Positions 9,266 to 43,280 of a stretch of 64,000 nt of DNA are shown here, piece after piece. The translations under genes were made by a program, and so were the position numbers. Source of the DNA: Aurantiochytrium sp. KH105. Lineage: Eukaryota > Sar > Bigyra > Thraustochytrida > Thraustochytriidae. The stretch is taken from NCBI GenBank assembly GCA_003116975.1, contig BGKB01000183.1, positions 62,001 to 126,000 of the forward strand, read 5' to 3'. Every line of letters starts with the position of its first letter. Positions within the stretch are counted from its first letter, which is position 1. The notes under the pieces were generated by a model that saw only the letters and a list, made by a program, of their open reading frames with translations, did not search any database and had not been told where the DNA came from.

Positions 9266-9452
9266 ATGCGGCCCCGAGGCGGCCTCGCTGCCGTCGCCGC
9301 GGCCGCACGCAGGCGGCAGGCGGAACGCCGCGCCGAGCTCGAGCGGGGCCTCGACGACAAGAACAAGAGCGACAAGGACGACGTCAACAAGAACAACCGC
9401 GCTCAGCAGGGCGGCGGCGGCAATGATGGCGAGGAGAGCAGCAGCGATAGCG

Positions 9453-9499
<47 letters not shown>

Positions 9500-12400
9500 G
9501 CTGCCGGCGTGAAAACGGTCGAGGAGGGCCGGGGCGTGCGGCAAGACGCCGCAGAGAGCAGCAGTAGCAGCAGCGAAAGCAGTAGCGGCACCGACGACGA
9601 CGATGACGACGACGAGGTGGATCCGGAAACGGGCCGCGCAGCGCCCCGAGGTCTCGCGCGAAGGAGACCTCGCGCCATGAAGCAAGTCGCAAACGCAAAA
9701 GAGCCAAGCGAGTCAAACGATACGCCACGCCACAAAAAGGGAAAAGAACTGAATGCATCCAACAGCATGGTTGAAAATTTGCAGCGTCAGGCCACCGACT
9801 TTCTTCAAGATATCACTGCGTTTGTAAAGGAAGTGCTCCGCGGACGCTCCAAGACATCGAAAAAGAAGCGAGCCAAACTCGTGCGCCGCGGCCTCGCTGC
9901 CGCCGCAGGCTTTGTCCTGATTCTCGGCATTGCACAATTGGTCTTTTACGCTCAATTCCTCATGCAAGACAGCGACGATTCTGATACAGAGCTCAGCCCG
10001 CCCGAGCGTCTTTACAAACGCCTCAACGTGAACTATGGCCCAGCTTCCTGGGCTCTGCGTCCTGATCGCGAGCGTCGTCGCATGTCTGCAAAAGAGTCGA
10101 CAGCCTCGCTCGAGAGGTTTGGCGTCACAGCAAGCACCCCGGAAAAGGACAAGTCCAAGCTGCGAATTGCGCGGCAAATTACCAACCCTGAAATTAACCA
10201 AAAGGCCAACAAACGCACTTTCGGCTGCCTCCGCGACGAGTGCCGCGGACTGGCGCTGGAGGATCTAACGAACCGCAAGTGGAAGATGATGTACAAGAAT
10301 GCCAAGGTCGTCGGACCCAACAACGGGACATTTTTCCGAGACAATCTAAATGTCCGACTCACGTGGCTTGAGAGCGATACGACCGAGCTGACCAAGCTCA
10401 AAAAGGAACGCCCCGAGACTTTTGAGCAAGCGTACACGCACCAAGTTGGCAAAACGTACCTGAGTGTGCTGGACGGTGCCGACGCCATCGGAGGTAACAA
10501 AGGCCAGCAGCTTCGCGGCAAACAGTCATTTGTGCGGCGACGCGGTCTCACAAAGGACATTCCCGGTCTCCCCAAGTCCAGCAATGGTCTCGACGAAAAC
10601 GACCAAGACGATGAAGAGGATGAAGACGACGATGATGACAACGAGAGTGGCGACAAGAGCAAAAGCAAACGGCGGCGGCGGAAACGCAGGCGCAAAGCGG
10701 CCGCTGAGTCCATTCGCATCGATGGTCTGCCCAAGTACGAGTGTTCGTACAATGACCTTGCGCTGCAGCCCGCGCAGTATCGCTTGTACTTTAAGGAGGA
10801 GTGCGAGGCCTTTTTGCGCAACGAGGGTAACGGCAAATCTTTCCTTTTGAAGCCCGAGACCGGCTCACAGGGCAAAGGCATTACATTTCACCCAGGCGTG
10901 AATTCCATCAAGAAAAAGGCAGCGTCGTTTTTTCCCTGCAAACACAATCCTTCGATGTCAGCCTTAGAGCGTGTTCTTGTGCAAGAGTACATTGCCAAGC
11001 CACTGCTCTTGGAAAAGTGCAAATTCGATCTGCGCGTATACATGTTGATTGCCAGTTCAGACCCGTGGATGGTGTTTTATCATGAAGGGTATTTGCGGCG
11101 GTCTCTCTTCGAGTATAGCGCCTCGTCCAAGAATCGCGCCGTTTACCTGACCAATACGCACTACCAGAGTCTCAAGCCCGGTTTCAAGCTGAGCGAGCAC
11201 ATTTGGACCTTTGAGGATATGCAATCGTACCTGACGTCACACGCGCGCGCCGGGGCGCACTATGTAGACAGTGTGCTCGACCCCTACATTAAGCGCGCCG
11301 CCAATTTCGTCTTTCAGAGCGCTCGGCAGAAGCTGCAGCGACGCAAGGGATCCTTTCACATTTTTGGTCTCGACTTTATGATTGATGACAACTTCAAGGT
11401 GCACTTTATCGAGGCTAACGGGTACCCCGGATACACCTGGAGCATCAACTTTGATACACGTGGATTTGTTGCCGAGCAGTTTGACCTGGTTCTCGAGTTG
11501 CACGAGCACCCTACTGTATTTGAGAAAATGCGTGCCGGCGACCGCTATGGGCAGTTCGAGCTTATCTTTAGCGAGCTCGAGGAGGCCGAGTCGCAGCGCT
11601 TGTATGACCCATGCTATGAGTTCTTCAACAACGAGCAGGCGGCCAAGGTAGTCGGTCCAGCCATGAAGCGGTTCTCGAGCTACACAGGTTTTGCGGCCAG
11701 CAAGGCGCTCTTGGGCGGAGGGGCGGCCGCAGATCTGTCGTGTCAGTCGAAAAAGTGTAAAGCAAAGCGCAAGGAGGCGCGCAAGGAGGCGGCGCGCGCC
11801 CGCCATGCCGCAGAACGTCTGTTCGAAGGCTTTATTGATGACATCGCGGGCGCCGAGCTCATCGGCGGTCTCAAGACGGACCAGGTCTCGACACTGGCCC
11901 GATTTTCGCGGCTCAATGGCTGCTCGCTCAACAAAATGTTCCTCATGCCAGCAACCTATCGTATGTACATGAACGACGAATGCGCCAATGTGGCAAAGTA
12001 CCGCACGGCCTCGGCCTGGGTTGCCAAGCCCATGGATGGCGCACACGCCGGTGGTTTTGAGTACTTTTCCCATCAAAACGGTCTTGGGCAACGTTTTCGC
12101 GGCTGCATGGGCGGCGTAGAAAAGAACAAGCTCAAGTACACGGACCCGGCTGACGCCAAGAACCATCTCAAGGCCGCAATGCAAGCGCCGCGCGACCTCC
12201 AGTACGTTGTGCAAAAATACGTGGGCAACCGTCTTCTCGTGCGCAAGCGTGCCTGGGACATCCGTGCGTACATGCTGATTGCGTGCACCGAGCCGTTCTT
12301 CGTTTTTTACCGCGATGGCTTTGTGCGCACGACTGAGCTTCGCGGCGGAGACGATGACGACGATGACGACGCGCGGCGAAGCTTCTTACTTGGCAAGACG

Positions 12401-13198
12401 GAGCTTAGTTTCGAGAACTTTCAGATTCTCTTGTCACAGGAGGCCAAGGCTGGCGATCTTTTCATGAGTTCTGCTTTTGAAACGTACGCCAAACAGGTGA
12501 TGCGCCTGCTCTTTCACGCTGTGCGGCCCTCGCTTCAGCGTCGAACCAAGTCTTATCAGCTTCTCGAGCTCACCTTTGCGCTCGACGATACCTACACATT
12601 CTGGTACTTGGGCGCGAACAACAGTCCGCAGCTTTCGCGATCGCCCAAGATTGTCGAAAATGTGATTCAGCCCATGCAAGATGAACTCAAGTCTGTGGTG
12701 CTCGAGACGTCGGATAGCCCCGAGGCGCTGGCAGGCATGCGCTACGGTGACCGCTACGGAGACTGGCGTTTGGTGTATAGCGAATACGAGGATTACATGC
12801 GCAACACCACGTACAATCCGTGTCACGAGTTTCGCAGCAAGTGGTCGCTCGCCAAGTCCGCCGTGCTCGCAACGGCCAAGGTGCACGACTACAAGACTCG
12901 CGTGGAGAGCGCGAACCAGCGCGAACTTGGAAAGTACACGCGCTTGGCTTGGCAAAAGTGCCGCGTTAAGGGCAAGGTCGAGACGTGCATGCAGTCCGAG
13001 TATGTGCGGCGCGTCCTCCGTGAGCGATATGAGATTTTTCTCGACAAGTCTTCGGTGGCGATGAACACAAACAAGGATGAGGAGGCCGAGGTACAACGCA
13101 AGCGCGAAGAACTCATTAGTGCCTACATTGAGGAGCGCATCAATCAATTTGCTGGCGTTGTAAAGGAGCCCGCATCTAGCGCTGCTGACGAGGGTTGA
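9266..13198 (+). CDS. Membrane-anchored double tubulin-tyrosine-ligase-like protein
   Basis: The protein is 1310 aa. Residues 1-200 are acidic and poly-Ser/Asp rich. One transmembrane segment (about 210-232) follows a basic stretch. TTL domain 1 spans about 470-800 with an intact ATP-grasp set: K-P-E-T-G-S-Q-G-K-G (near 528), L-V-Q-E-Y-I, F-D-L-R-V-Y-M-L-I (near 586) and F-I-E-A-N-G (near 713). TTL domain 2 (about 880-1190) keeps W-D-I-R-A-Y-M-L-I (near 996). Its nucleotide loop, however, reads K-P-M-D-G-A-H-A-G-G, and the metal-binding E-x-N reads Y-L-G-A-N-N (near 1112), so Glu is lost. TTL enzymes ligate amino acids to tubulin or other proteins. Here one domain is probably active and the second a pseudo-domain. 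The substrate is unknown; if the N terminus is cytosolic, the catalytic part would lie in the lumen. Confidence 0.8.
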
Positions 13199-21182: not shown

Positions 21183-22292
21183 TTCTTTCGTGGCGCCAGA
21201 AAGGTCTCGCCACGACCGTCGGCGGGCGCGGAGCAAGTGGAGAATAGCGCCCCCGGAAAGTGGAGAAAGGAGGCTCTGCAAATGGAGAATGGCGCCAGTA
21301 TACTACAGCAAACAGCTGCAGCAGGTTGGCGGTGCGGTGAGACGGGTGCCGACCTTTTGCGCAAGCTATTCTTAAAACTCTGCAAAGTTGGTTCTGATAA
21401 TAGCGGATGTGCGGTGTGATGTCGAGTGCGGGTCGAGGGTGCCCCGCGAGCAAAAGTGCCTGGATGTGGCGAGGTGATTGCGGAGAGTGGCCAGTTGCGA
21501 AGCTGAACTCACATTTCTCAAAATAGTGCGAAAAATGCGCACTGAGCCAAAGCGAGAGAATAGCCATTTTCACACACCGAGCTTGCTTGAGATCCAGGAC
21601 CAAACTCAAATCAGCAAGCACAGCAGAAACAACAACAGAATTCCACATCAATTCCTTTTTGGTTGTACTACGCATTCTTGATGCGCTTGATAAGCTCTTC
21701 GTAAAAGCCCTTGACCAAGTAGAGCATGTGGAGCCTCGTTTACCCGATCAACAAGAAAGTTTCCCGGCCGATCCACGGGAGAACGCGATGCGAGCAGAAC
21801 GCGAACGATTACGTGGGCGGGCTCGGCTCGGGGCAAACGCGCGCGTGCTCGTGCGCGCTCGTACGTGCGTGCGGCGCACTTCCCGCGCTTCCTTCGCTGT
21901 GCGCCCTTCTTGCCTGCTCTCGACCCGCGCAGCGTGCTGAGCAGCCGGACGGAGGGACGGTATCTTCGTCACATCTGCCTGTCTGCCTGCTGCGCGCTTG
22001 CGGCGTCGACACCAGGCGCGAGGCGCTCGTAGAGAAGCCTCGTTAAACGAACAACGCATCCGTCTTGCCCTCGTGCACGTGGCGCCGAGTTTCTCTGGCT
22101 GCCGCGCCGCTGCGGTCTCGGCTCCTTTCGTTCGTCGCTTGACAGCGTCCTCGCTCTCGTGGCCAGATTCACGACGTCATCTTGGCGTTGTATCAGCTGC
22201 AAGCGTCCTCGCTCTCTTGCAGAACATCAATTTGAAATTTTGCTCTTCGTGAGGAGGCCGCGTAAGAAGCTACAAGGTGCAACAAGGTCGAA
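21077..22292. other. Divergent region between the Aat-like and LRR genes
   Basis: This 1.2-kb region contains the CTTT array (21121-21190) close to the Aat start, and GC-rich sequence at 21780-22150. Short open frames have no recognisable domain. Promoters of both flanking genes presumably lie here. Confidence 0.5.
21121..21190 (-). repeat. (CTTT)n array in the Aat leader
   Basis: About 17 tandem CTTT units lie 45-115 bases upstream of the Aat ATG; they read GAAA in the gene sense. Confidence 0.97.
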
Positions 22293-25200
22293 ATGATGAG
22301 CTTTCGTGGCGATGGTGCACTCCAAAAAGCAGTTGTGGCGATCGAAAACGGCGCGACACAAATCGAGTACGTAAATGACAAATTCTGGGACATCCCAAAA
22401 CAGGAGCCAACCACAACTCACGCACGCATGCACTCACGCGACGAAATGTAACCCTTGGCGCAATTTTGTTCATTTTGGCATCTCGATGAGCGCAGTCTTA
22501 GGTACATCAATATCGGCGCAGAGGGCGCTATGGCGCTGGCGGAGGCACTCGTAAAGAACGAGGCACTGCATACGCTAGAGTAAGTCATTGTGACAAAGTG
22601 AAAGTGGGGCCAGAAGCCCAAGGTGCAACAAGAGCTGACCACAACTCACGTACTCACGCACGCATGGGATGCGATGGAATGCAATGCTTGGCGCGATGTC
22701 GTTCATTTTGGCGTCTCATGTTATAATGAGCGCAGTCTTTGTCGCAACAATATCGGCGACGAAGGCGCCACGTCGCTGGCGGACGCACTCGCGAACAATG
22801 AGTCGCTGCAGTCGCTAAGGTAAGTCAGTGCGACGTAGTGAAAGTGGGGCCAGAAGCCCAAGAAGAAAGCAACAAGAGCTGACCACAGCTCACGCACGCA
22901 CGCTCACACGGGATACAACGGAATGCAACCCTTGGCGCGATTTCGTTCATCTCGGCGTCTCATGTCATGACGAGCGCAGTCTTCGGTACAACAATATCGG
23001 CCGTGAGGGCGCGACGGCGCTGGGGAATGCACTCGCGAACAATGAGTCGCTGCAGACGCTAGAGTAAGTCGTTACGACAAAGTGAAAGCGGGGCCAGAAG
23101 CCCGCCCAAAAAGCAACAAGAGCTGACCACAGCTCACGTACGCACGCACTCACGCATGGCATGCGACGGAATGCAACCCTTGGCGCGATTTCGTTCATCT
23201 TGGCGTCTCATGTTATGACGAACGCAGTGCTGGCGACAACAAGATCCGCGACGAGGGCGTGACGGCGCTAGCAAACGCACTCGTAAAGAACGTGTCGCTG
23301 CATACGCTAGGGTGAGTCATTGCGACAGAGTGAAAGTGCGGCCAGAAGCCAAAGAAGAAAGCAACAAGAGCTGACAACAGCCCACGTACCCACGCACTCA
23401 CGCATGGGTTGCGTCATAATGCAACCCTTGGCGCGATCTCTTTCATTTTGGTGTCTCATGTTATGACAAGCGTAGTCTTTTTAACAGCATTATTGGCGCA
23501 GAGGGCGCCGCAGCGCTGGCAAACGCGCTCGCGAACAATGCGTCGCTGCACACGCTAGAGTAAGTCATTGCGACAAAATGAAAGTGTGGCCTGAAGCCCA
23601 AGAAGAAAGCATCAAGAGCTTATCACATTTCGCGTACTCACGCACGCATGGGAATGCAACCCTTGGGGCGATTTCGTTCATCTTGGCGTCTCATGTTATG
23701 ACGAACGCAGGCTTCGCTGCAACGATATCGGCGACGAGGGCGCGACGGCGCTGGCGAACGCACTCGCGAACAATGCATCGCTGCATACGCTAGAGTAAGT
23801 CTTTGCGGCAAAGTGAAAGTGTGGCCTGAAGCCCAAGAAGCAACAAAAGCTGACTGCAGCTCACGTACGCACGCCCTCACGCACGCATGGGATGCGACGG
23901 AATGCAACCCTTGGGGCGATTTCGTTCATCGTGGCGTCTCATGTTATGACGAACGCAGCCTTCGCAGCAACAATATCCGCGACGAGGGCGTGACGGCGCT
24001 GACGAACGCACTCGCGAACAATGCGTCGCTGCATACGCTACTGTAAGTCATTGCGACAATGTCAAAGTGTGGCCTGAAGCCCAAGAAGCAACAAAAGCTG
24101 ACCACAGCTCACGCACGCACGCACTCACGCACGCACGCACTCACGCACGCATGGATTGCGACGGAATGCAACCCTTGGCGCGATTTCGTTCATCTTGGCG
24201 ATCTATTTTATGACGAGCGCAGTCTTGATGGCATCAACATCGGCGATGAGGGCGTCGCGGCGCTGGCGAACGCACTCGCAGAAAATAAAACATTGCAAAC
24301 GCTCGAGTAAGTTTCAAAGAGGACTCACAAGCCGCATCAAATTCCTTCTTCTGACATTTTGAAATTACAGCATCAACTTCGCTCATCCTGCTCTCAAAGC
24401 CGCTCTCGAACGCAATCAAACTCTGCACGAACAGAGCCAGACGCCTCTTATGCAAGTGTGCAAGAACGGGGTCATCTCGGAGGCAGAAACGTTGGTGGTT
24501 AACGGGACTCGAATCGACGCGCGGGACATTTTAGGCCAAACAGCGCTGTATCACGTTTGCGAAGCCGAGGATGAGATCAATGCTATTCTTCTAGCGAAAC
24601 TTCTTTTCAAGCACAGCGCAAGTCTTTCGAGCGAGTCCCTTGGGATAAGGACGGCAATTGCGAATGCTTCTTCCAAACGTCGTATGAAGCTGTCCGCCTT
24701 CCTTCTTTTTATACATTCGTTACCGTTGGCGCAGCTACAAACCAACGCATTGCGAGAGATGGTTGTCAAGCTTTACGAGCAGGGCGTGCAGACATTGAAA
24801 AAGATTCGCAGTCTTACTTCCGCCCAGCTTGAGAAACTGGGGATAGCAAGCTTGCAAGACCGCCGTGCGTTGCTGCAAGTGTTTGTAGGTCCTGGGCAAA
24901 CGAGCAAGTTGGAGATTCTTGCCGCGGAGCTTTCCAATGCCCGGGCAAAGCGCAGCGAGGAAAAGGCTGAACTCCAGCATCCAATGCTGCGTGATTTCTT
25001 TGCCGAGCAGCTCTCACGCGAAAACCCGATTGCAGTCGTTGCAGACTTTGACTCGCAGCAAGCAGCTGTATCTGAGAAAGAGCAAGCGCTCACCGCACTG
25101 CAGGAAGCCGTCAAGACAGACCCAGAAAAGATCCCTGAACGGAATCAGATGCGGCGCGTCTTTATCACGTGTATTCGAGATTCTCTCGCAAAAACTTCTG

Positions 25201-27515
25201 AAATCAAGCTTCGTGAGCTTGAAGATGATGCAAACGACGTGGCCGACACTAGTCGCAAGCTCTGGCGAGAAATCCTGGGCGAAGCGACAAACATCGACGA
25301 TGCAGCGGAGCTAGTGACCTTTGGACAAGTACAGGAGGCAATTCGAACCATGATGGAGGCCATCAAGGCGTGGGAGGCTCGCCATGATACGATTGCTGCA
25401 CGCGAGCGCACCACTGCAGCTCTCAACGCACTAGAAGAGAGCACGAAGCGCCTTGGCATTCAGCCTACATTCTTCATGACGCTGACGTATCCCGAAAGAT
25501 CACAGGAGTTGGTATTGGAACTTCAGGATGTGCATCAAGCATTTGTTGCGGAGCTCAGCGCCTTGTCGAAAAGCAATCCCATGGCAGATGCCCCGCTCGA
25601 CAAAGTGCGACGTGCGCTGGCCTGCATGTTCTCGTTTTACACTCGTACGGTTTCGAGCGAGGTCTCGCGCATAAAGGACCTGGGGCATTTGCTCTCTCGC
25701 CTTACGTCTGGACTCACTGAGCCGAACACCGAAGATGCAGAGCTTCTTCTCAAGAGTCTCAGAAACAAGACGAGAAAGCTTAAGCGTCTTGCTTTCGAGC
25801 TCGACGACGCCCGCGAGGATGCCAGAGGAGGTGACGAGGAAGCTCAAGCGAGAATCGCTGACCTGGAACAAGAGCTTGCTCGACTCGGAAGTGTTGACAA
25901 ACTCGACAGCGAGCTACGCAAGAAGCGAGCTCGCTTGTTGCGTCATGCAGAAGAGCACTACCCTGAGCTGCTCCGGAATCAAGAGTGGCTGAAGCGGCTG
26001 GGTTTGAGCAACGACGGAGCACCGCTGGAGCTGTCCAAGCTGGGCTTATGGCGGACGACGGCTCGTCGCGAGCACTTTGTCACTCTCAAGGAGCTTGCGT
26101 CCAAGCCTGGCAAGTCTGTGCAAAAAGTGCGTGGCCCCGATGGCCGCGATCTTGTGCTCAAGGTCTTTCATCTCGCCAGCGAGGCGTGGAGCAGTCGCTT
26201 TTACCATCAAGTTGCGGCACTTGCCCAGATTCAATCGGCCTACATTGTCCAGATTCAGGGCGCCTTCATGCAGGATGCATGTGAGGGCTGCGTTCTGACA
26301 GTGTATTATCCGGGTGGCGACCTCGCCACGTGGATTCGCGATCATTCGCACGCAGACACGGCAATTCGTCTGCGCATTGCCATTGGCCTCCTTTCTGGCC
26401 TCCACGATCTGCATTCGCGAGGCTTCGTGCACTGCAATGTCAAGCCAGAAAATGTCTTTCTCGCAAAGGGTCTGGCACCGGTGCTGGGCGACTTTGACGG
26501 CGTGCAGACGCACAATGTGACCATGACGCAGCCAATGCAGGCCACCATCAAGTACATGGCGCCAGAACTCCGCAACGGAAATGTCGACAAGGTCGAGCCT
26601 GCCGTGGACATGTTCTCTGTGGGCGTGGTGCTCGCGGAGCTCTTTGGCGGCTCAGAGGTGTCTGACGCAATTCAAGCACTCGTTTCGTCTCTCCAGTCTG
26701 CAGATCCAACACAGCGGCCCACTGCACTTGAGGCCTTGCGTCACGAAGCCTTTCAGGTTGAGCTTTTGAAAGAGGCCTCATGTGCCATTTGTCTCGACGT
26801 TTATCCAGTCAGTGGAGGCGTTACTTGCACTGATAGCCACTTTGCGTGCAAAGAATGCCTGAGCGAGTCGGTTCGCGCCGCTGCTCAGCCTCAGGCTCAC
26901 GTCAAGGTACGGCGGGATGGAAGCATGTGCTGTGTCGCGCCCGACTGTGAACTCCTTGTTTCCGGTCGAGCCATTGCATCCGCGGTTCCAGACGAGGACT
27001 TAGCAGCTCTGCTCGACATTTTGCGCGCGCACTTTGAGCGAGACGCTGCAGCCGAACAAGAGCGTCAGCTTCGTGATCGCGTTGACGCAGCGCTCCGCGA
27101 ACATGGGTTGGACCGGACGACGCAGAATCACATTCGCGACATTCAAGATGAGGTCCTCGCCATGTCGTGTCCGCGCTGCTCGACAGTCTTTGCTGACTTT
27201 GAGGGCTGCTGTGCTCTCAAATGTGGCGCTTGTTCAGGCTACTTTTGTGCATGGTGTCTGCAGGATACAGGCAATGACGCAGACGCTTGTCATCAGCACG
27301 TTGCAACATGCGCGTCACAGCCTGCTGGCGAAGAAGACCCATACTTTAGCGATTTTGCTGTTGTAAAGCAAGCGTGGGCTCGGCTTCGTGCACAGCGTCT
27401 TCGTCGCTACATGGCAGAAAAGATTGAAGACGCAGGCATACGCGCCCTCGTTCAGCAAAGACTGCGCCCTCTCCTCACGCCGGACATTGTCGGCGACGAC
27501 TTTGAGTTTGAATAG
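22293..27515 (+). CDS. LRR / ankyrin-like / SAM-like / pseudokinase / RING-RBR protein, ten exons
   Basis: Exons: 22293-22366; eight of exactly 84 nt at 22496, 22736, 22980, 23228, 23476, 23711, 23959 and 24223; then 24371-27515. All introns are GT-AG and phase 2; the protein is 1296 aa. Residues 25-249 hold eight 28-residue LRRs of ribonuclease-inhibitor type (L-D-L-R-x-N-N-I-G-D-E-G-A-T-A-L-A). Then come an ankyrin-like segment (about 262-330), a SAM-like segment (about 382-422), coiled coils, and a kinase-like domain (about 816-1046). The kinase keeps V-L-K (845), but HRD reads H-C-N (936-938) and DFG reads D-F-D (956-958). A RING-type C-A-I-C (1053) follows, then an Rcat-like C-P-R-C...G-C-C-A-L-K-C (1182-1201). 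It is probably an innate-sensor-like or scaffold ubiquitin ligase; ligand and substrate are unknown. Confidence 0.8.
22496..24306 (+). repeat. Tandem exon-intron array: eight copies of a 235-264-bp LRR cassette
   Basis: Each unit contains an 84-nt LRR exon plus a 151-180-bp intron. Introns share a 5' block (GTAAGTCATTGCGACAAAGT) and then a GCCAGAAGCCCAAGAAG-type block. They also share a CACGCACG-rich stretch, and a 3' block around CGCGATTTCGTTCATCTTGG that runs into the acceptor. Introns are about as conserved as exons, so the unit that was copied is exon plus intron. Because every intron is phase 2 and every exon is 84 nt, gain or loss of a unit keeps the frame. The last intron (24307-24370) is unrelated and short. 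Confidence 0.92.
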
Positions 27516-28050
27516 TAAGTGAAGTGCTGAGAATATCTGTATCGTCGAGCTCACTGCCGTGAAAAAGGTGTTGTCCTGTGACCTGAAGTGGTCGCCGAGG
27601 CCCAAGACGCTGCTGCGGTCTTTCTTCAACCGAAGGACCGAAGGTGATATCATTTGCGCGATCCACGCAAGCACGTGCGGGCCTGACGGACGGTGCCGAG
27701 AGATTGAGGTGCCCAGGCGGCCGCGCGCTCAGCCCGCGGAAGGTCTCGCCGCCGCGTCAAGTTAGCGCACGGAGCGGTTCGGGCTTTGGTTGAGCCACGA
27801 GGGTGAGAGAGTGGTTGGCGATGACGATGGTGGATTGAATAAGATACTAGGCCTACCTTGCGTCTTTGCCAAAGATTTCGTTCGGTCTCGCTGACCCAGC
27901 CTGCCGCCGGGTCAGGGGAACTATTTCGCCGAAAAATATCGTTCGGTTGGACCGAACGAAATTTAGCCTGTCGCCGATGCTACGTCCCGAGTCGAGGTCC
28001 AGGAAAGAGCCTGCACTCGAGCAAAGCCTCTCGTAGATCACGATATACTC
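27516..28050. other. Spacer between the LRR gene and a TIR relic
   Basis: The spacer contains the nested inverted repeats described at 27874-27966. Short open frames do not resemble known proteins. Confidence 0.5.
27874..27966. repeat. Fold-back element with nested inverted repeats
   Basis: Outer arms ATTTCGTTCGGTC (27875-27887) and its exact reverse complement (27950-27962) enclose further hairpins: CTGACCC/GGGTCAG (27891-27915), TTTCGCCGAAA (27923-27933), and CGTTCGG/CCGAACG (27940-27958). The size and structure resemble a very small MITE or a structured regulatory element. No clear target duplication is visible. Confidence 0.55.
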
Positions 28051-28990
28051 TTATCTACTGCTGCTTTTTGTGGATGGCCTTGGATCTTCGCCGTGCAGTT
28101 TCGCTCGCTGAAAAGTCATGGAATCCTGTTCGAGAAAGATGTGCTTGGCCGATGTCGGGGCAGCATCAATGTATTTGGAAAAGCTAGCAAATCCCGTGCG
28201 AGCTGGGTCGCCCTCGTGCGCGAGCAAAATGGGCTTCTCCTCTTGCAACGCTGTTTCCAGCTCCATTTTCACGGCGTCTGGAGAGCACCGTCTTGGAAAG
28301 AAAAAGCAAATAGCACTTGGACTCACGAATGCTACGTCTCACGGCATCCTCTGCGATATTATTCTCGGTCCCCTGGTCAATCCTGACACAAAGTTTACGA
28401 TGCCGAAGCTTCTCCGCCATGAGGTTGCAGGCATTCCCTGCATCGACCTGACGATGGCTTATAAAGACGTGGTACTTGAGTCCAGCAGCAAACTCTGGAC
28501 GTCCCCACAGACATGACCAGGCGTTTCACGGACTTGCGCGCCTCGACCATGTCGTCATACCTGACCAGCACGGAGTCGTCTGACAGGGACTGCAACAGAA
28601 GTTCCCACGGCAAGTCCGAAACACGGCGTCACGCGCGTCTTGAGTGTAGTTGCCGGTTTATGCGCGTCTTGTGCCATGCGAACCCATATTTTGTCGCCGT
28701 CCTCCTCGAGCGCAAGTACCGAGAGGCTGAAGCGAACAATCGCTCGATCTCCGGTCAGCTGAGGCGCGCGCTTGCCCTTGTTCACATCTCCGCTGTACTG
28801 CGCACAAAGCGAGAGCACTCGCACAAAGACACAACACCGCTGCACTGCGTACGGAATTCATCTTGATGTCCGTCGTCGATGTCGAGAAAATAGGTGGTAT
28901 ACCATGTCGAGATCACTCTCTTTAAACACAATGCTCGAGAGCTTGCCAAAATTTAAAAGGCGTTGCCATCGGCGGTGTGCAGACAATTTT
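28051..28990 (-). pseudogene. Decayed TIR-domain gene
   Basis: Read on the minus strand, pieces of a TIR domain appear in different frames. One gives Y-H-V-F-I-S-H-R (near 28465) through I-R-E-S-K-C-Y-L-L-F-L-S-K (near 28300). The next frame continues M-E-L-E-T-A-L-Q-x-x-K-P-I-L-L (near 28250) and K-Y-I-D-A-A-P. A break of one base lies near 28270-28280, another near 28519-28535, and further breaks and stops occur near 28610-28640 and upstream. TIR domains act in innate immune or NAD-cleaving signalling. With several shifts and no continuous frame this looks like a pseudogene rather than one sequencing error. It faces away from the TPR-TTL gene and its 3' end faces the LRR gene. Confidence 0.7.
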
Positions 28991-35558: not shown

Positions 35559-38312
35559 CTAAATGTCACAGGTCCATGGGTCAAGAACGGCATGAAGTAG
35601 GTTCGAATCTGGGCTGCGCGTCGCGACTTCGAGCCCTGGGCCATAGATGCTGCACTCGTAGCTGCCACTTTGGCGCGGTGTGGACGACACTCCACGACAG
35701 GAATCTTCCAGGGTCTTCACGCAAAGCGCTAGGCAGGCCTTCCACCACGTTCGCCCGTAAGCACGAACAGTGGACACCTGGACTGGGGTGGCAGCGATTT
35801 CTTTGGAAAGCAAAAGAAATGCTTTACATTTTCCGGGAAAACTCCGCGTGCGGGGCAATCGAACAGCTCGCTTTCGACCGAGCGAGGCTCGAAATTGTCT
35901 TGGCGTCAGCGTCGGTGCTTGCGTAGGGCTCGAGCTGGGCGCGGGCGTGCTCGGAATCTCAATTTCCTTCACCGTGGAGGGCGGCACCGAAGGCGAGGGA
36001 GTTGGTTGCAGCGTTGGCTCCGCTGTCGTCTCAAACGATTGGATGACTGGCAAATCGTACACACATCGCAAACTCACGTTGCAAAAGGGATAAAAAAATT
36101 GCGACGTCTCGTTGCTAATGACGAGTTCAGCCGGATCGAAACTCGCAGCATACCGGAAATGATTATCGGTGATGGCCCGGTCCGGTTGCTGCGTGCGCTT
36201 GTAAAAATCTGCCATCGTACGAACTATCTCAATCACTTTGTTTGGAATCTTCTTGCGACGGAGAAGATTGACTCTTTCGTTCGGATCATCTTCAACATTA
36301 TACAGAAAAACAAGGTCCGTGTGTCCACGAGGCAGGCCCCCATAGTCGATCGGGGAGCGAATCGGGAGGTTCCAGTTTGTTCGACGGAAGATGTCGGGTC
36401 GCAAGTGTGTCGTGACAATATGAAATGGATCTTCGCGCAGTTTGTGAGCTGCATACGATTGTCCCCAGGCCAGCTTATACGGACCGAATTGAACTGCGCC
36501 CCCTCCGTGCACACGAACACGATTGTGAGCGTGAGTCCAGTCCACGGCGTAAGTTGGATCCACGAGGCTTTCGAATTGCGTGCCCTTATAAACTTGTGGA
36601 TCCCAAACTGCGCGGGGGACAAAGTCCGGAAGCAGATCAATGTCCTCAATGAGGTCCGCTTGTTCCTCAGTAACCACCGAGAGCACGCGCAGCTCGTCAG
36701 GGCGAGATGACTCGCCCGTCTGGATCGTGCGCCAGCGATTGACACCATCGAGAGTATTGTTGTTGTGGGGCAGACAATGAGCACACTTCCAGGCCTGCGC
36801 ATACTGCTCTGACGAGATGCCCGCGATACCGCTCGCAATCGTTGGCAAGAAATCGACAAAATGCATATAAACCTCGTTTGTTCCGCCTTTGACGGCGCTC
36901 TCGAGACGTGCGAGCGGCGAGAGGGTTCCGCGCACCAAGGTGCTAACTCGGATGCCTCCCTCCCAGACGGCGTTCTTGCTACCCATAAGAGGCCAATTGC
37001 TGGCGCCGCCCAGACGAGTGTCCAGCCCGCCGTTATCCGAGGTGAAAATAAACACGGTGTCATCCCAGACGTATTCGCTTTGAAGAGCAAACACCATCTT
37101 CTCAATCGCCGCGTCCATCGCGTGCACCATGCGCAAGTATTCGCGTCGAAGATTCGTGACCTGGTCATGAACAAAGAGTTCCTGCAAAGTCTTATCTGTT
37201 GCGTAACGAGAGGGCGCCTCAAGTGGCGTGTGCGGCGATCGAAAGGCAACGTTGAGGAAGAGCGGCTTATGCCGCGCCTCGCTTGCATAGTATGTGTGCA
37301 CATACCTCTCGGACTCGTACTTGAGAATGTCAGTATTATGCATCGTTTCGTACGCTGGGTCAGTCGTGTGGAGATCCATCAAGGGCGGAAGCTCTCCTGC
37401 AAAAGAGAGGCGCTCTGCCTTAATAGAGGCGTTGTGCAAGGTCGACAGACCTGGCAAACTGTCTTCGAAGAGCTCTTGAGCGAGAAACTTGGCTCGAAAG
37501 CTCTTGTCATTGACGCGCGACGTCCAACAGAGCGAGAATGGTCCAACGTGGTTGTCAAATCCACGAAAGGTAGGCCACAGCCGCTCGTCTTGGTACCCAA
37601 GGTGCCATTTGCCGAGAATGGCAGTGTGGTAGCCATCGCCCTTGAGAATTTCCGAAAGGGTTGTTTCACGTCCTGAGAGCCCGTATGTGCCTCCAGAGGT
37701 AACAGCGGGACCGTGGCCATACCTGTAAAAGTAGCGACCCGTCCAGAGCTGAGCACGAGAGGGACTGCAAATTGGTGCCGTATACATACGCTCGAGTCGA
37801 GTACTTTCAGGGAGAAGGGTATCAAGAAAAGGGGTGGCACTCTCCAATCCTGTCTCTGAATATGTATGCCAGCCGACATCGGCCCAGCCCAGATCGTCTG
37901 CGAGTGCAAGGACAATGTTGGGCCGAGAAGGTGCCGTCCACTGGTGTACAGTCGTGATGGCCGTCTCGTTGCCCTGTTGCACCGAGCCACTTGACAGCCA
38001 AATGTCATTCTGCCCAAGTTGCGTTCGGATACATCGAAAATCGCGGTCAATGTCGTGCGCGGCGCGCTCTTGCGTCAGGAACGAGCCTCCATGTGCAATG
38101 ATTTGCGTCAAGTTTACCTCTGTTGATCTCCATGCCGAGGCTTCGAAACACTCATCCAGAGCATTTGCAAAAGCTTGCGTCAAGGAGCTTATGCTTTCAG
38201 CATTTTCTACCTTGAGAAGGAGATACTCTTCATCTTCACTCTCAGCTTGTACTCTCGCAATGAGGCAAAGCGCCGCCACGGCAAGGAGCGTTGCCTGACG
38301 AGACAAGGTCAT
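35559..38312 (-). CDS. Secreted arylsulfatase (arylsulfatase B-like) with Cys-rich C-terminal module
   Basis: The protein is 917 aa from ATG 38312, which opens a clear signal peptide (T-L-L-A-V-A-A-L-C-L-I-A-R-V-Q-A). The sulfatase core starts with N-I-V-L-A-L-A-D-D-L-G-W-A-D-V-G (metal-binding Asp pair) and has the formylglycine signature P-I-C-S-P-S-R-A-Q-L-W-T-G-R. It continues with L-G-K-W-H-L-G and F-T-S-D-N-G-G. The arrangement with a GKWHLG motif fits arylsulfatase B/I/J type enzymes acting on sulfated polysaccharide. The C terminus has a Pro/Thr/Ser-rich linker, then a roughly 100-residue Cys-containing module (A-C-L-A-L-C and Y-E-C-S-I-Y) that resembles PAN/apple-like carbohydrate-binding units. 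Thraustochytrid walls contain sulfated polysaccharide, so wall remodelling or feeding are plausible roles. Confidence 0.85.
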   Translation of the reverse strand: MTLSRQATLLAVAALCLIARVQAESEDEEYLLLKVENAESISSLTQAFANALDECFEASAWRSTEVNLTQIIAHGGSFLTQERAAHDIDRDFRCIRTQLGQNDIWLSSGSVQQGNETAITTVHQWTAPSRPNIVLALADDLGWADVGWHTYSETGLESATPFLDTLLPESTRLERMYTAPICSPSRAQLWTGRYFYRYGHGPAVTSGGTYGLSGRETTLSEILKGDGYHTAILGKWHLGYQDERLWPTFRGFDNHVGPFSLCWTSRVNDKSFRAKFLAQELFEDSLPGLSTLHNASIKAERLSFAGELPPLMDLHTTDPAYETMHNTDILKYESERYVHTYYASEARHKPLFLNVAFRSPHTPLEAPSRYATDKTLQELFVHDQVTNLRREYLRMVHAMDAAIEKMVFALQSEYVWDDTVFIFTSDNGGLDTRLGGASNWPLMGSKNAVWEGGIRVSTLVRGTLSPLARLESAVKGGTNEVYMHFVDFLPTIASGIAGISSEQYAQAWKCAHCLPHNNNTLDGVNRWRTIQTGESSRPDELRVLSVVTEEQADLIEDIDLLPDFVPRAVWDPQVYKGTQFESLVDPTYAVDWTHAHNRVRVHGGGAVQFGPYKLAWGQSYAAHKLREDPFHIVTTHLRPDIFRRTNWNLPIRSPIDYGGLPRGHTDLVFLYNVEDDPNERVNLLRRKKIPNKVIEIVRTMADFYKRTQQPDRAITDNHFRYAASFDPAELVISNETSQFFYPFCNVSLRCVYDLPVIQSFETTAEPTLQPTPSPSVPPSTVKEIEIPSTPAPSSSPTQAPTLTPRQFRASLGRKRAVRLPRTRSFPGKCKAFLLLSKEIAATPVQVSTVRAYGRTWWKACLALCVKTLEDSCRGVSSTPRQSGSYECSIYGPGLEVATRSPDSNLLHAVLDPWTCDI

Positions 38313-39049
38313 TCTTTTGAGGGTTTGCTGAGAATGTGATGGACATTCCCGCCACAAGATTCTGAGGGTTTTGCGCGCACACACGCTTTCTTTGATGCAC
38401 CCTCGGGAATACAAATTGCCCCGAAGTGAAAGGACGCGGCCTCAGCTGGAGACACCTACTAATCTACCTACCACCTGTCTGTGAGTGCGATAAATTTGCT
38501 TTCAACTCTTATAAATTCAAGAGTCCGAGGCATGGTCGGCTCGCAATGTACCGGATAGATCATGTTACTAATAAGCGTCGAGCCAGAACTGACCTCCTCG
38601 CCATTATTTGAGTGCGGGCGCGGAGCCATTCCCGCGGGGTTACCAAGCTGGCTGACCTACGCAATGAGAAAGCTTAAACGCAGGGGAGAAGAAGGGGGGG
38701 GGGGGGGTCGTCAAGGTGTGTACTACTGCATTTGCTTTTAGTTTCGTGTTTTGTTCTTTGTTTTGTTCAGGATTTTTCCGTTACAGGCCTCCGACCCGGC
38801 GGCGGCGGCCGGCAGTGGTCCGGGGGAGGCTGACTCGGAAGGTTGGTTGGTTAGTTCGTTGGTTAGCTGACTGGCTGGCTGGCTGGCAGTGTGATTGCTT
38901 TAAACCACCCTAGTCAAAAAGCCTAGCCACGAAGTAGCGCAAACTTCCGCTGCCGGTCAAACGACACGAAGAAAAGCGAGTCGAAAAAAAGAAAAGAGAA
39001 TTGAAACACCAAAATTTCCTACGAGCACTAATTCAATTCAGGATACTAG
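38313..39049. other. Spacer between the two sulfatase genes
   Basis: This is 740 bp with a 13-base G run at 38695-38707 and GGTT/GGCT-type simple repeats near 38840-38890. Short open frames lack domains. It should contain the promoter of the upstream-reading arylsulfatase. Confidence 0.55.
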
Positions 39050-40846
39050 CTAAGCAAAGACAAGCGCCGAAGTGTCAACGACACATTTTCTGTTGGACCA
39101 GCGGCAGTGGGGATGCGACTCACATCTTGAAGCTGACTTCTTGCCGAGAAAGGCGCAATCGATCCTATCGCGGCAGCGACGCTTGTAGAAAACGCAATGA
39201 TCGCCCCTTTCGTTGCAGTCATCGGCTTTCTTAATGACGTTGCCGTCCGTGTCTCGAAAGCATGGCACATAGTGAGCTCGTAAATAGCCAGAGAGCTTTG
39301 CGACTTGCTCGTGAGACGGGTTGGTCGCATGAATGTTCGTCGCCTCGCCCTCATCATCATAGTCATACAGCTCGGCCCCGATGAAACCACTTTCCGAAAA
39401 GTCTCCCGCGCTGCCGCGTGTATTCCAGTCGCGCCATTCGGTGTACCTATAGCGGTCCGTGCGCACCGAATACCCCATGGCCACAAAGTCCTTGGCCATG
39501 AGGCTCTCGCATCCAGGAACGTTGCAGCGTTGGACAATCGAGAACGATGCAGCACCAATAGGGTACGAAAAGTTGAACCCTGCAACTGATGGCTGCGTCT
39601 CAAGAACCTCGAGAGCGTCTTCATCAGGCTTGTCGTCACCGCGCACAAGGTAGGCAAAGCTACGTGCGTCGACCTTGCCCTTTTTGATTTCGCGGCTCGT
39701 CATTGGCGCGCCAGCCAGCTCTCCAAGTGTCGGCATCAGGTCCAGTAGCTGGACTGGGTGCGGGCGCACCGTGCCAAAGCTTGCAGGACTGTCTGGGTCC
39801 TTGATCCATAACGGAACCTTGAGAGAAGGCTCAAAAAGACTCATTTTGCACCATTGCTGGTTCTCTCCAAGGTTAAAGCCATGATCAGAGGTCAAGACGA
39901 CAACCGTCTTGTCTTCGATGCCCATGTCCTTGACCTTTTGCAGGAGTTGACCAATGAGCGTGTCAATCCAGTTGACAGCGCAAAAGTAGCGCATGCGTAG
40001 ATCTTTGGTCAGGCCACTTTCGATCTCGAGCACCTCGCCATAGGGAGCCGTCTCGTCCGAGGTTCCGTAAAGCGAACCAGCATTCTGAAGCTCGCTGCTG
40101 TCCAAGATTGGTTCGCAGGTCTTTCGCTGCGCAATTTCCGGGATGTCAGTGGGAAGGTCGTTAGGAACAGGGTCGCTCGCTGTTCTGGAATTTACATCGT
40201 CAAACGTGCAGATCGAGTTCGGGACTTCCCATCGGAGATGTGGTCGGCGAATTCCGACGGCCATGAACCAGGGTTTTTCCTTTTTTCTGCTTTCAAGCCA
40301 TTCGAGTTGCTCCATGGCGTAGTCCACGGATCGTTTATCTGGGCAAATGTCTTCCGTTTCGGCACTGCAGTACAGAGCGGAGCCGGTTCGGCACGTTTCG
40401 TTGATGACAACTGGTTGAAACTCGTAGCGCTGAAAGAGCTTCTGGTTAGAGCCGCGAAAGTGGAATACCTTGCTCGAGCCCACGGTACGGTAGCCACTCG
40501 ATGCAAAATGCTTGGGCAAGGGAATACTCTTGCGCATGAGGTTGAGCTCGAGACGGCTGGTCGAGTGATAATAGTAGTTTGTTTTGGTGGGATTGCGTCC
40601 GCTGAGCATGGATGCGCGCTCGGGCCCGCACTTGGGAATCTGCGCAAAGGCAGCGTTAAATTGGACGCTTTCTTCTGCAAAGGCGTCCATATTGGGTGTG
40701 CTTACATCGGAGCTGCCATACGCGCCAGCCTCTGCTCGGAGGTCATCGCATAGAATGAGCAGCACATTCTTCTTGGTGGCCCTGCTACTTGCGAAGACGC
40801 CCACGAGCGCTACTACGGCCAGCGCAACGTCGACTCTGCTCCTCAT
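39050..40846 (-). CDS. Secreted iduronate-2-sulfatase-like enzyme
   Basis: The protein is 598 aa from ATG 40846. A signal peptide (V-D-V-A-L-A-V-V-A-L-V-G-V-F-A) is followed by K-N-V-L-L-I-L-C-D-D-L-R-A-E-A-G-A-Y-G, typical of iduronate-2-sulfatases. Further matches are N-A-A-F-A-Q, S-K-V-F-H-F, V-G-I-R-R-P-H and T-S-D-H-G-F-N-L-G-E. The formylglycine motif reads C-G-P-E-R rather than the common C-x-P-S-R; the minimal C-x-P-x-R is kept, so activity is still expected. The C-terminal 70 residues hold eight to ten Cys (C-N-E-R-G-D-H-C, C-E-S-H-P-H-C) in a small module outside the sulfatase fold. The neighbouring sulfatase gene is on the same strand. The sulfated substrate is unknown. Confidence 0.85.
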   Translation of the reverse strand: MRSRVDVALAVVALVGVFASSRATKKNVLLILCDDLRAEAGAYGSSDVSTPNMDAFAEESVQFNAAFAQIPKCGPERASMLSGRNPTKTNYYYHSTSRLELNLMRKSIPLPKHFASSGYRTVGSSKVFHFRGSNQKLFQRYEFQPVVINETCRTGSALYCSAETEDICPDKRSVDYAMEQLEWLESRKKEKPWFMAVGIRRPHLRWEVPNSICTFDDVNSRTASDPVPNDLPTDIPEIAQRKTCEPILDSSELQNAGSLYGTSDETAPYGEVLEIESGLTKDLRMRYFCAVNWIDTLIGQLLQKVKDMGIEDKTVVVLTSDHGFNLGENQQWCKMSLFEPSLKVPLWIKDPDSPASFGTVRPHPVQLLDLMPTLGELAGAPMTSREIKKGKVDARSFAYLVRGDDKPDEDALEVLETQPSVAGFNFSYPIGAASFSIVQRCNVPGCESLMAKDFVAMGYSVRTDRYRYTEWRDWNTRGSAGDFSESGFIGAELYDYDDEGEATNIHATNPSHEQVAKLSGYLRAHYVPCFRDTDGNVIKKADDCNERGDHCVFYKRRCRDRIDCAFLGKKSASRCESHPHCRWSNRKCVVDTSALVFA

Positions 40847-41320
40847 TTCCTCGGTTCTTCTGTGACCTCTACGCGGCGTGCGTCGCCCCGCGTCTTGGCG
40901 CTCGCCTCGTAGTCTCTCGTACTCGTGTCGCTCGCAGTCCAAGCGAGAGCGGATGGAGAGGTGGCTGGCTTCTTCAGCCCCGTTTGCGGCGCAGCGAGTC
41001 GTGCCGAACTGCCCCACTTTGGCTGTCGGCGCAGCGCGCGCGATGGCGGTCGATAAAGCTGGCCGCCAGCAGCAGCGGCTGGCTGCTAGCTGCTGCTTGA
41101 GTTCGCGCTCGAGTCGAGTGCCTTCGCTCAGCGTCGCGTCCACCCCCACGGACGCGCGCCCGGGTATTCGATCTGCTCGGAGGGCGTTTTAGCGTGCAGT
41201 GCAAAGTCAAGTCAAGTCCTAGAAGTCAAGCCAAAGCAGTGCAAGCGAAGCCAAGCCTGTGCCGCGCACTGGTATACAATGAATATTGACCTCAAAACCC
41301 GTGAGTGAGCGAGTGAGTGA
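40847..41320. other. Upstream region of the iduronate-sulfatase-like gene
   Basis: GC-rich leader, then CAAGT-type repeats (41200-41250) and a GTGA microsatellite ending at 41320, where the transposon inserts. No gene was seen. Confidence 0.5.
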
Positions 41321-41485: not shown

Positions 41486-43120
41486 CTAGGGTCGACCATC
41501 TGAAATTGTTAGGACAGCTTCGAGCTGCTTTTCGAGTTCATCAACGTCGTATTCTTCTTCAAAAAGGTCATCATCATCACCACTATCATCGCTGTCAGTT
41601 TCAACACCATCTTCAATCGAGGATTCACTACGAAACTCCTCTATGACACGATCACGTGAGACGATAATCCGCTTCACCAAGTCTCGACCAGAGGGTTGCT
41701 CGAGTTTGATGAACTCGGCATCGAGTCTCTGCTTCACATCTTGGAGAGTGGTGTCCTTCGTGTATTGCCTTGCAATATTTCCTTTCACGTAAGCCCAAAT
41801 CAGTTCGATGGGCTGCAGATCCGAGTAGTGAGGTGGTGTGAAGAGGACGCGATGCCCTGCCCTCTGTGCTGCCTCGATCACTTCCGGCAGCACCTTCTCC
41901 TTGATCCAGTTCTTCAGCAGAACTTTCAGCTGCGCAACTGTGCTCGTTGCGTCGTGCGGTATCTGATATTGATAGAGCGCTGCAATAACCTCCCGTTTCT
42001 TTAGCTTCGCGACGTCGGGTGCGGTTGGCGGCAGCGTCTTGTGGTAGCTCGCATTGTCCATTATGATCAGGGACGGCTCATGAAGGTTAGGTAGGAGCTG
42101 CGTCCGCCACCACAATGCAAAATTAGTCCCGTTGAAGTTCTTGTGGTAGTCTCCTTTGCTCGCGTCAGCTGCTTGCGGACAAAACGTCCAAACAGAGCCT
42201 GGCACGAGGCCAGCTTCACGATCTGGGTATTTTGGACTCGAATTCTGAATGGCAGCCAAAATACAATACCTACGTCCCTTGTGTTGAACGCGCGTCGTTG
42301 TGTCTTCCGCGTCCATTGGATCAAATAGACTTTTGTCAAACCTATGGTAGTGTTGATGCACGTATGACTCATCAAGATAGACCTCCCTTAGCTGCAACTC
42401 AGGCGGAAGGGATCGATTCTGTAAGAGTCTGACGATGTAATCGTCGCGCAGAGCAATATGTTCGACCTTCAGCGAAACCTTTCCCGGACGCTTCCCACGG
42501 CAGAAGCCCATCGCGACCAGATAGGACTGTGTGGCGCGAAGAGCAGCACTGTAGTCTTTGGCGTCTATCACACCGCCTTCGTCATGGATAATCGAAAGCA
42601 CCCCAGTCTCTACCAGGTAGTCTGTGATGTGTCTGGCTGACACAGCCTCATGGCGCAGCCGCCTTTCGCGTACGAAGTCACGAATCTTGAAGAATACCTG
42701 CTTCGTCGTTGGAACACGTCTCGGCTTCGCCTCTCGATTGCCGCGATTCGAGACTGGTTGCAGACTGCGATCGCCAGTCTCACTCGTTCGAGAGTCGGTC
42801 CAGCTCTTTATAAGAGGAGCGAGTGTAGACTTGGATATGCCCAGCATTGCGGACACGTTTGCCATCGCGTTAATCGGCCACTTGCGGCCTGTCTTTTTCT
42901 GCGAAGCCAACTGATCTTTTTGATACGCGAAATAAGCGTGTAGAGCCATGAAGCGCTCTTGAGACGTGAGCACCGGTCGTCCACGAGCTTTTCTGATTGC
43001 CTGAAGTTCTCCTTCGCAGCCCTCGATGGTCGCCGTTACCCGGGTTTTGACGCTTTCATTTCGCGGACGCCCTTGCTCTTGAGATAGTGATGTCCGGCGA
43101 CGCTTGGGGGACCCGCTCAT
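41486..43120 (-). CDS. DDE-superfamily transposase
   Basis: The protein is 544 aa from ATG 43120; the frame runs upstream only to a GTG. The N-terminal third is basic with helix-turn-helix-like segments (A-N-V-S-A-M-L-G-I-S-K-S-T-L). The catalytic DDE_3-type core shows V-Y-L-D-E-S-Y-V-H (first Asp), L-I-I-M-D-N-A-S-Y-H-K-T (second Asp), and S-D-L-Q-P-I-E-L-I-W-A-Y-V-K (third acid, Glu). This spacing is that of Tc1/mariner and IS630 relatives. The tail is acidic. The enzyme would cut and join at the 29-bp TIRs that flank it. All three catalytic residues are present and the frame is unbroken, so it may be active. Confidence 0.9.
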   Translation of the reverse strand: MSGSPKRRRTSLSQEQGRPRNESVKTRVTATIEGCEGELQAIRKARGRPVLTSQERFMALHAYFAYQKDQLASQKKTGRKWPINAMANVSAMLGISKSTLAPLIKSWTDSRTSETGDRSLQPVSNRGNREAKPRRVPTTKQVFFKIRDFVRERRLRHEAVSARHITDYLVETGVLSIIHDEGGVIDAKDYSAALRATQSYLVAMGFCRGKRPGKVSLKVEHIALRDDYIVRLLQNRSLPPELQLREVYLDESYVHQHYHRFDKSLFDPMDAEDTTTRVQHKGRRYCILAAIQNSSPKYPDREAGLVPGSVWTFCPQAADASKGDYHKNFNGTNFALWWRTQLLPNLHEPSLIIMDNASYHKTLPPTAPDVAKLKKREVIAALYQYQIPHDATSTVAQLKVLLKNWIKEKVLPEVIEAAQRAGHRVLFTPPHYSDLQPIELIWAYVKGNIARQYTKDTTLQDVKQRLDAEFIKLEQPSGRDLVKRIIVSRDRVIEEFRSESSIEDGVETDSDDSGDDDDLFEEEYDVDELEKQLEAVLTISDGRP

Positions 43121-43280
43121 CGTTTTAGTACACACCCCCTCTTCACCGCAAGTCCGCGTCGTGTGCTCGCTGGCGTTGGTCGTAGCCGCGCGCTTCGTCG
43201 CGATCTGCACGCCGTCGACTTTTTCCAGTTCATCTTAAAAAGCGCCGCTTCTCGCGTGGACGGAAGGAAAAATTAGAGGC

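Follow-up and report, generated by a model that had tools for sequence, protein, structure and literature searches.

Genes built from exons that each encode one leucine-rich repeat (LRR) have been described in ciliates and in brown algae. In Tetrahymena, arrays of 90-bp, phase-2 exons with one LRR each are very variable in unit number, for which unequal crossing-over was proposed; the arrays are enriched in pericentromeric and subtelomeric regions, some are fused to protein kinases, and a REP non-LTR retrotransposon lies beside young units (PMC6564038). The same study gives exon conservation profiles and logos; the terms ‘positive selection’ and ‘concave’ are absent from its main text, and no comparison of intron with exon diversity was found in the text accessible to us (PMC6564038). 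The LRR-ROCO genes of brown algae use 72-nt phase-2 exons, each for a 23-residue LRR, that are shuffled and carry selected sites on the concave face, and their products are proposed immune receptors (PMC11378527).

Here we analysed a 64,000-nt stretch of DNA (the window) on contig C183, together with the genome to which it belongs (76.0 Mb in 367 contigs), and found a gene with a comparable design. We conclude that this gene probably belongs to a diversifying receptor-like family of a thraustochytrid-like protist, in which a variable array of one-LRR exons is joined to a conserved half with a non-RD kinase and RING-like fingers. As in the Tetrahymena arrays, the LRR exons are constant in length, in phase 2 and part of exon–intron units of variable number, with a link to kinases; unlike them, the exon measures 84 nt rather than 90 bp and is accompanied by a conserved effector half with a kinase and RING-like fingers. 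One LRR per phase-2 exon and shuffling are shared with the brown algal genes (both hosts are stramenopiles if the present one is a thraustochytrid), but the exons are of 84 rather than 72 nt and the effector half is kinase/RING-like here and ROC–COR there. Because exon length and effector half both differ from the two types as they are described in the texts accessible to us, the family is a member of neither. The logic is already in print for Tetrahymena and brown algae, and exon length and effector half are what is new, as far as those texts go. The brown algal exon system is said to have been first described by Zambounis et al. in 2012. Near-identical repeats in which a few variable residues carry specificity also occur in TAL effectors and in lamprey VLRs, the latter assembled somatically; the present family differs from these in fold or in assembly. 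Literature on thraustochytrids or Labyrinthulomycetes and leucine-rich repeats yielded no title on such a family in a search that mostly did not extend to subscription papers.

The LRR gene occupies positions 22293–27515 of the window on the + strand and is divided into ten exons (one leader, eight for LRRs and a long 3′ one), with the features listed here (unit identities refer to the apparent second copy of the locus, on contig C151).

22293..22366, + strand: leader exon, 74 nt (MMSFRGDGALQKAVVAIENGATQI plus 2 nt), donor GTACGT
22367..22495, + strand: intron 1, 129 nt, less closely related to the unit introns
22496..22579, + strand: LRR exon 1, 84 nt
22580..22735, + strand: unit intron, 156 nt
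22736..22819, + strand: LRR exon 2, 84 nt
22820..22979, + strand: unit intron, 160 nt
22980..23063, + strand: LRR exon 3, 84 nt
23064..23227, + strand: unit intron, 164 nt
23228..23311, + strand: LRR exon 4, 84 nt; collinear with C151 unit 10 (unit 96%)
23312..23475, + strand: unit intron, 164 nt, GTGAGT..TAG
23476..23559, + strand: LRR exon 5, 84 nt; collinear with C151 unit 11 (89%)
23560..23710, + strand: unit intron, 151 nt
23711..23794, + strand: LRR exon 6, 84 nt; collinear with C151 unit 12 (97%)
23795..23958, + strand: unit intron, 164 nt
23959..24042, + strand: LRR exon 7, 84 nt; collinear with C151 unit 13 (93%)
24043..24222, + strand: unit intron, 180 nt
24223..24306, + strand: LRR exon 8, 84 nt, terminal type (AENKTLQTL); collinear with C151 unit 14 (95%)
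24307..24370, + strand: terminal intron, 64 nt
24371..27515, + strand: long 3′ exon up to the stop codon
26121..26657, + strand: protein kinase domain (Pfam Pkinase, E 7.6e-26), catalytic loop HCN
26781..26948, + strand: RING-like cysteine cluster (Pfam zf-RING_2, E 0.033, below cut-off)
27168..27311, + strand: second cysteine cluster, by eye like RING2 of RBR ligases

This ten-exon model has a single open frame of 1296 codons, and its introns are all in phase 2: the 74-nt leader leaves a remainder of 2, and all eight units add exactly 84 nt, with AG in front and GT behind. The initial annotation had proposed eight LRR exons of equal length and phase, and its coordinates are right, as is the 84-nt length; the introns are GT..AG and in phase 2. 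Tandem Repeats Finder independently reports 7.6 copies of a 248-base unit at 22438–24312. Splicing of the introns is predicted from the sequence. Across the arrays of the family, read-through of an internal intron meets a stop within two codons in all 193 cases examined. An Rfam scan of positions 21500–28600 for structured RNA in the introns gave no match at the gathering score, and no signal peptide is evident by eye in the leader.

In the 3′ exon, weak ankyrin-like and SAM-like stretches lie below the Pfam cut-offs, and the middle part is charged and looks helical by eye. Pfam scans of the 3′ part returned only kinase families above the cut-off, with no match to ROC or COR. The Arg of the HRD motif is replaced in the kinase domain, which is the mark of the non-RD type, and the catalytic loop reads HCD in 13 and HCN in 8 of 21 genes (window included). 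Judged by these motifs, this is a family of predicted non-RD kinases, some members of which are without the usual catalytic Asp. The window copy (HCN) has lost the catalytic-loop Asp of active kinases, and its kinase may therefore be dead. In the RING-like cluster, the cysteines and the histidine are identical in all nine sequences of alignment A2 (window included); in the second cluster, all cysteines save the last are identical in the nine aligned genes (window included). The best profile match of the second cluster is RNF4 (0.0058), with RNF31 at 0.5–1.4, each sub-threshold, and comparison with the RING1–IBR–RING2 order of RBR E3 ligases gives conserved cysteines with sub-threshold matches only. 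A search of viral contigs, which may omit records of this genome, found no relative of the 3′ part.

The locus had been taken as one gene; instead, it belongs to a large dispersed family. A single window unit has at least 329 matches across the genome, far beyond chance, and the 3′ exon has at least 51 matches, three of them with stops, at at least 45 places (45 of 675 first-look candidates were scored, and 45 places is a lower bound). We extracted 26 arrays, including that of the window, with 221 candidate exons, of which 216 have AG/GT borders and an open frame; two of the five that fail are not LRR exons (one is a leader, the other an intron stretch caught by the scan). A leader peptide of the same pattern precedes 14 of the 26 arrays (window and C151 copy included); the leader is out of view in 11, and the aligned leader frame of the C49 array contains stops. 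The nine arrays that have a leader, a 3′ part and no N in the array hold 8 to 17 intact units (C183, both genes of C151, C51, C248, C44, C128, C293 and C122). Array sizes were not taken from counts cut by runs of N (C164, 2; C106, 4), from the C87 array, which contains N, or from arrays that are cut or possibly cut by the ends of contigs or stretches (C303, C101, C313, C137, C172, C312, C339, C316, C340, C8 and C218). Three of 20 fetched relatives are without 84-nt LRR exons in the approximately 7 kb upstream, so the kinase half can be separated from the LRR array. The 3′ exon contains four stops in C122 and one stop in C293.

The window repeats match Pfam LRR_6 (E 3.5e-35) and, with 28 residues where that type has 28–29, are of the ribonuclease-inhibitor (RI) type; matches among solved structures include ribonuclease inhibitor itself (1dfj, 1.1e-29) and NLRP proteins. 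The LRR type is thus shared with RI and with animal NLRs, but, unlike the latter, the window gene has no Pfam match to NACHT or NB-ARC. Entropy per LRR residue is highest at residue 3 (3.79 bits), followed by residues 4 (3.45), 1 (2.99) and 6 (2.68); it is 2.06 and 1.84 bits at residues 9 and 21, and less than 1 bit at 18 of the 24 residues other than 1, 3, 4 and 6. These four residues occur in 165 distinct combinations among 194 repeats. We take residues 1, 3 and 4 to be those marked x in LxLxxN, which in an RI-type LRR lie on the concave sheet, and the face on which the variable residues lie to be the presumed ligand face. Diversification of a recognition surface, as the initial annotation had it, holds in so far as the diversity falls on this face; a role in recognition is what we infer rather than observe. 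In residues 1, 3, 4 and 6, pN is 0.55 and pS is 0.47 (0.12 and 0.27 in the rest of the repeat); the resulting ratio of about 1.2 within the hypervariable codons is uninformative because changes there are saturated, and the case for selection therefore rests on comparison with introns and with fourfold-degenerate sites of the 3′ exon.

When units of the window gene are aligned with exons and introns separate, introns 2–8 have a mean identity of 86% (83% with intron 1; the terminal intron at 24307–24370 is omitted), exons 76% and third codon positions 69%. The introns, first described as being as alike as the exons, are in fact more alike. The finding that had been set beforehand as the one to count against the original idea was a much stronger conservation of exons than of introns, and we observed the opposite. 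Across the family, 189 internal introns are 88.3% identical and their exons 80.4%, with intron identity above exon identity in 94% of unit pairs; intron identity is 0.888 within arrays and 0.882 between them. Nucleotide diversity is 0.117 in introns, 0.14 at other exon nucleotides and 0.56 at the 11 hypervariable exon nucleotides, the last value being flattered by the choice of these nucleotides after the conservation data had been viewed. Fourfold sites at conserved residues of the exons have a diversity of 0.20. In the 3′ exon, fourfold divergence is 0.112 among 14 close genes (window included, C248 omitted) and 0.156 with C248; this background uses 15 of 21 genes, leaving out C293 and C122 (stops), the second gene of C151 and C51 (short matches), and C57 and C32 (distant). 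As intron diversity (0.117) equals this synonymous background (0.112), the uniformity of the introns calls for no special homogenisation, such as the gene conversion previously invoked, and we reject this candidate. The excess of diversity lies with the exons, mainly at residues 1, 3, 4 and 6, and the introns are at the neutral level of the family.

These values bear on the view that tandem repeats simply turn over neutrally, their units being scrambled by unequal crossing-over and conversion, and that LRR residues vary because those exposed to solvent are weakly constrained, without a role in recognition. Exposed LRR residues are generally under little constraint, unit number varies widely among arrays and some members are broken (C122 by four stops, C293 by one), all of which suits neutral turnover. 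Unconstrained sites should, however, reach 0.11–0.12, the level of introns and fourfold sites, rather than 0.56, and 216 of the 221 candidate exons retain their splice sites and frame. On balance, we consider neutral turnover alone to be unlikely.

The nearest relative of a unit (n = 193) is in another array in 70% of cases and in the same array in 30%, compared with 5% expected, so local duplication matters too; nearest relatives elsewhere have an equal rank from the 3′ end in 19% of cases compared with 9% expected. An exon and the intron that follows it have their nearest relative in common in only 17% of the 193 units. Association between variable sites declines with distance: it is 0.22 for adjacent nucleotides (1 nt) and 0.05 for sites more than 100 nt apart, with a permuted baseline of 0.03 (Mantel r −0.311; none of 2000 permutations reached so low a value, with or without the site pairs less than 10 nt apart). 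Codons 3 and 4 together are common to 240 unit pairs, compared with 100 expected (2.4×). The 211 of these pairs that join different arrays are no more alike than other pairs in the following intron (0.888 versus 0.884) or in nt 27–50 (0.870 in each group). Sharing of codons without the following intron points to the copying of stretches shorter than a cassette, besides whole cassettes; pairs that share codons 3 and 4 are somewhat more alike in nt 11–26 (0.818 versus 0.776) and nt 51–84 (0.847 versus 0.792), which suggests that the exchanged stretch is sometimes longer. Exon plus intron, originally proposed as the duplicated unit, is indeed the unit that repeats, but the whole cassette is not the sole unit of copying, given the low share of joint nearest relatives and the decay of association within tens of bases.

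The C293 array (stretch L044, 1503–3283) has a unit spacing of exactly 242 nt six times over. Its introns 3–6 are identical, and introns 1 and 2 differ from these by 2 and 1 nt; the exons between these near-identical introns differ at up to 11 of 84 nt. The pattern is in keeping with directed diversification at the start of the LRR exon, by targeted mutation or by templated short-patch conversion confined to the exon, with introns spared. The 13 closest independent pairs likewise show 0.32 differences per nt at hypervariable nucleotides, compared with 0.034 elsewhere in the exon and 0.008 in the intron (the pairs were picked for intron likeness, which lowers the intron rate). However, the excess recurrence of hypervariable codon pairs (2.4× chance) and the use of mostly one codon per amino acid at residue 4 (TAC 30, TAT 1; GAC 24, GAT 1; residue 3 less so) argue for copying rather than fresh mutation. 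Within C293 itself, exons 4 and 6 are identical and exon 5 differs from both at one nt. Among 12 close pairs inspected, both preceding introns are visible in 8; in 7 of these 8, the preceding introns differ by at least 9 mismatches, and only in the C293 pair by 1, so most cases can be put down to ordinary crossing-over within the exon. Directed diversification is, in our judgement, quite unlikely. We find it doubtful that two to four ligand-facing codons are rewritten by short-patch exchange limited to the start of the exon, with introns left identical, in an ongoing diversification that draws on a genome-wide, recombining pool of LRR exons and possibly differs between clones or cell lines of one strain.

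Change in unit number is seen directly in one pair of apparent chromosome copies. The flanks of the window locus are 98% and 96% identical on C151, and probes at window positions 9266–13198 and 57127–59508 are collinear there at 98% each. We used four probes from parts of the window that do not include the LRR gene. One has exactly two matches, on C183 and C151; the other three match both contigs at 96–98% and have only partial, weaker matches elsewhere. Together, the four probes give a collinearity of approximately 50 kb. On the basis of these matches, the assembly appears to hold both chromosome copies. Four matches to the PfaD family lie above the cut-off, in open frames of 1845–2152 codons, and form two pairs of equal score. 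PfaD being a subunit of PUFA synthase, these matches suggest that the host may be a thraustochytrid. The C151 copy of the array has 14 intact units and the window copy 8, with no N inside either. The last five units are collinear (96, 89, 97, 93 and 95%), the 5′ part holds 3 units in the window and 9 on C151, and units 2, 5 and 6 of C151 are 97–98% alike. The expectation that repeats come and go without breaking the LRR frame is thereby borne out, by 8 versus 14 units on the apparent copies and by 8–17 in the nine sized arrays. A 175-base segment just 3′ of the LRR gene (27628–27802) has the opposite orientation on C151. We make no claim for an apparent 0.75-kb loss in the C151 3′ exon, which coincides with a single N and is probably a join. 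Eight downstream flanks of 1.1 kb revealed partial matches only and no clear further copy pair. The flank of C44 matches that of C122 at 92% over its length, which makes these arrays a candidate second pair (17 units versus 8 intact of 9, C122 with stops); they were not counted, as the flank is partly repeated DNA.

That collapsed or chimeric repeats in a two-haplotype assembly created false unit numbers and false shuffling is highly unlikely. Runs of N or single Ns occur in several members other than the window and C151 arrays; several arrays stop where a contig ends or a run of N begins, and the C87 array and the 3′ part of the gene on C151 contain single Ns. But the window and 14-unit arrays, without N, are collinear over five 3′ units at 89–97%, and chimeras would neither preserve the 84-nt length and the splice sites of 216 among 221 candidate exons nor concentrate variation on four residues.

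Of the 26 arrays, 18 are on contigs of more than 60 kb, and 16 of these 18 lie at most 20 kb from a contig end with their 5′ end outward (2.0 expected); the two exceptions are the window array and its C151 copy. Relatives have upstream blocks of up to approximately 4.1 kb in common, at 91–92% identity. This placement suggests a subtelomeric home of the arrays, although repeats common to several contigs may be all that ends them there; no exact run of three to four TTAGGG or TTTAGGG units is present in the assembly.

Elsewhere in the window, a dispersed repeat of approximately 200 bases (28629–28832), near the 5′ end of an open frame at 28977, is found at 84–93% on ten contigs besides C183 and C151. 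Neighbouring sulfatase-like genes lie on the − strand at 35559–38414 (Pfam, 2.7e-40) and 39050–41149 (by eye). A transposase-like open frame of 574 codons (41486–43210, − strand) has a DDE_3 endonuclease match (1.6e-09). A single N at 50562, in an open frame that is kinesin-like by eye (49281–52949), is a possible assembly join, as are the single Ns in C87 and C151.

If the diversifying receptor-like family is as we propose, a typical gene would consist of a leader, a variable number of one-LRR exons and an effector half of linker, non-RD kinase and RING-like fingers. With every LRR encoded by one 84-nt phase-2 exon and flanked by similar introns, whole repeats would be gained or lost in frame when arrays cross over unequally. 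Short exchanges of tens of bases, for which the statistical evidence is given above, would move hypervariable codons within arrays and between arrays on different contigs. Diversifying selection would keep residues 1, 3, 4 and 6 variable, mostly on the presumed concave face, with the scaffold fixed; the introns would drift at the neutral rate of the family and offer breakpoints that are spliced out and leave the frame intact. The LRR arc would bind variable ligands, be it a virus, a bacterium or a marker of self or non-self, and binding would be signalled through the kinase/RING half. We infer an intracellular receptor-like protein and, with it, ligand, signal and expression.

The family, if this is true, would be a hypervariable, cassette-built family of LRR receptors in a free-living heterotrophic protist, and the LRR-exon solution would occur with exons of 90 nt in ciliates, 72 nt in brown algae and 84 nt in this family, the effector halves differing among them. 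Two copies already appear to be unlike in repeat number, so comparisons among strains and clones are directly feasible. As apparently neutral introns lie beside every selected exon, the rate of exchange, its tract length and selection may be separable in a single alignment.
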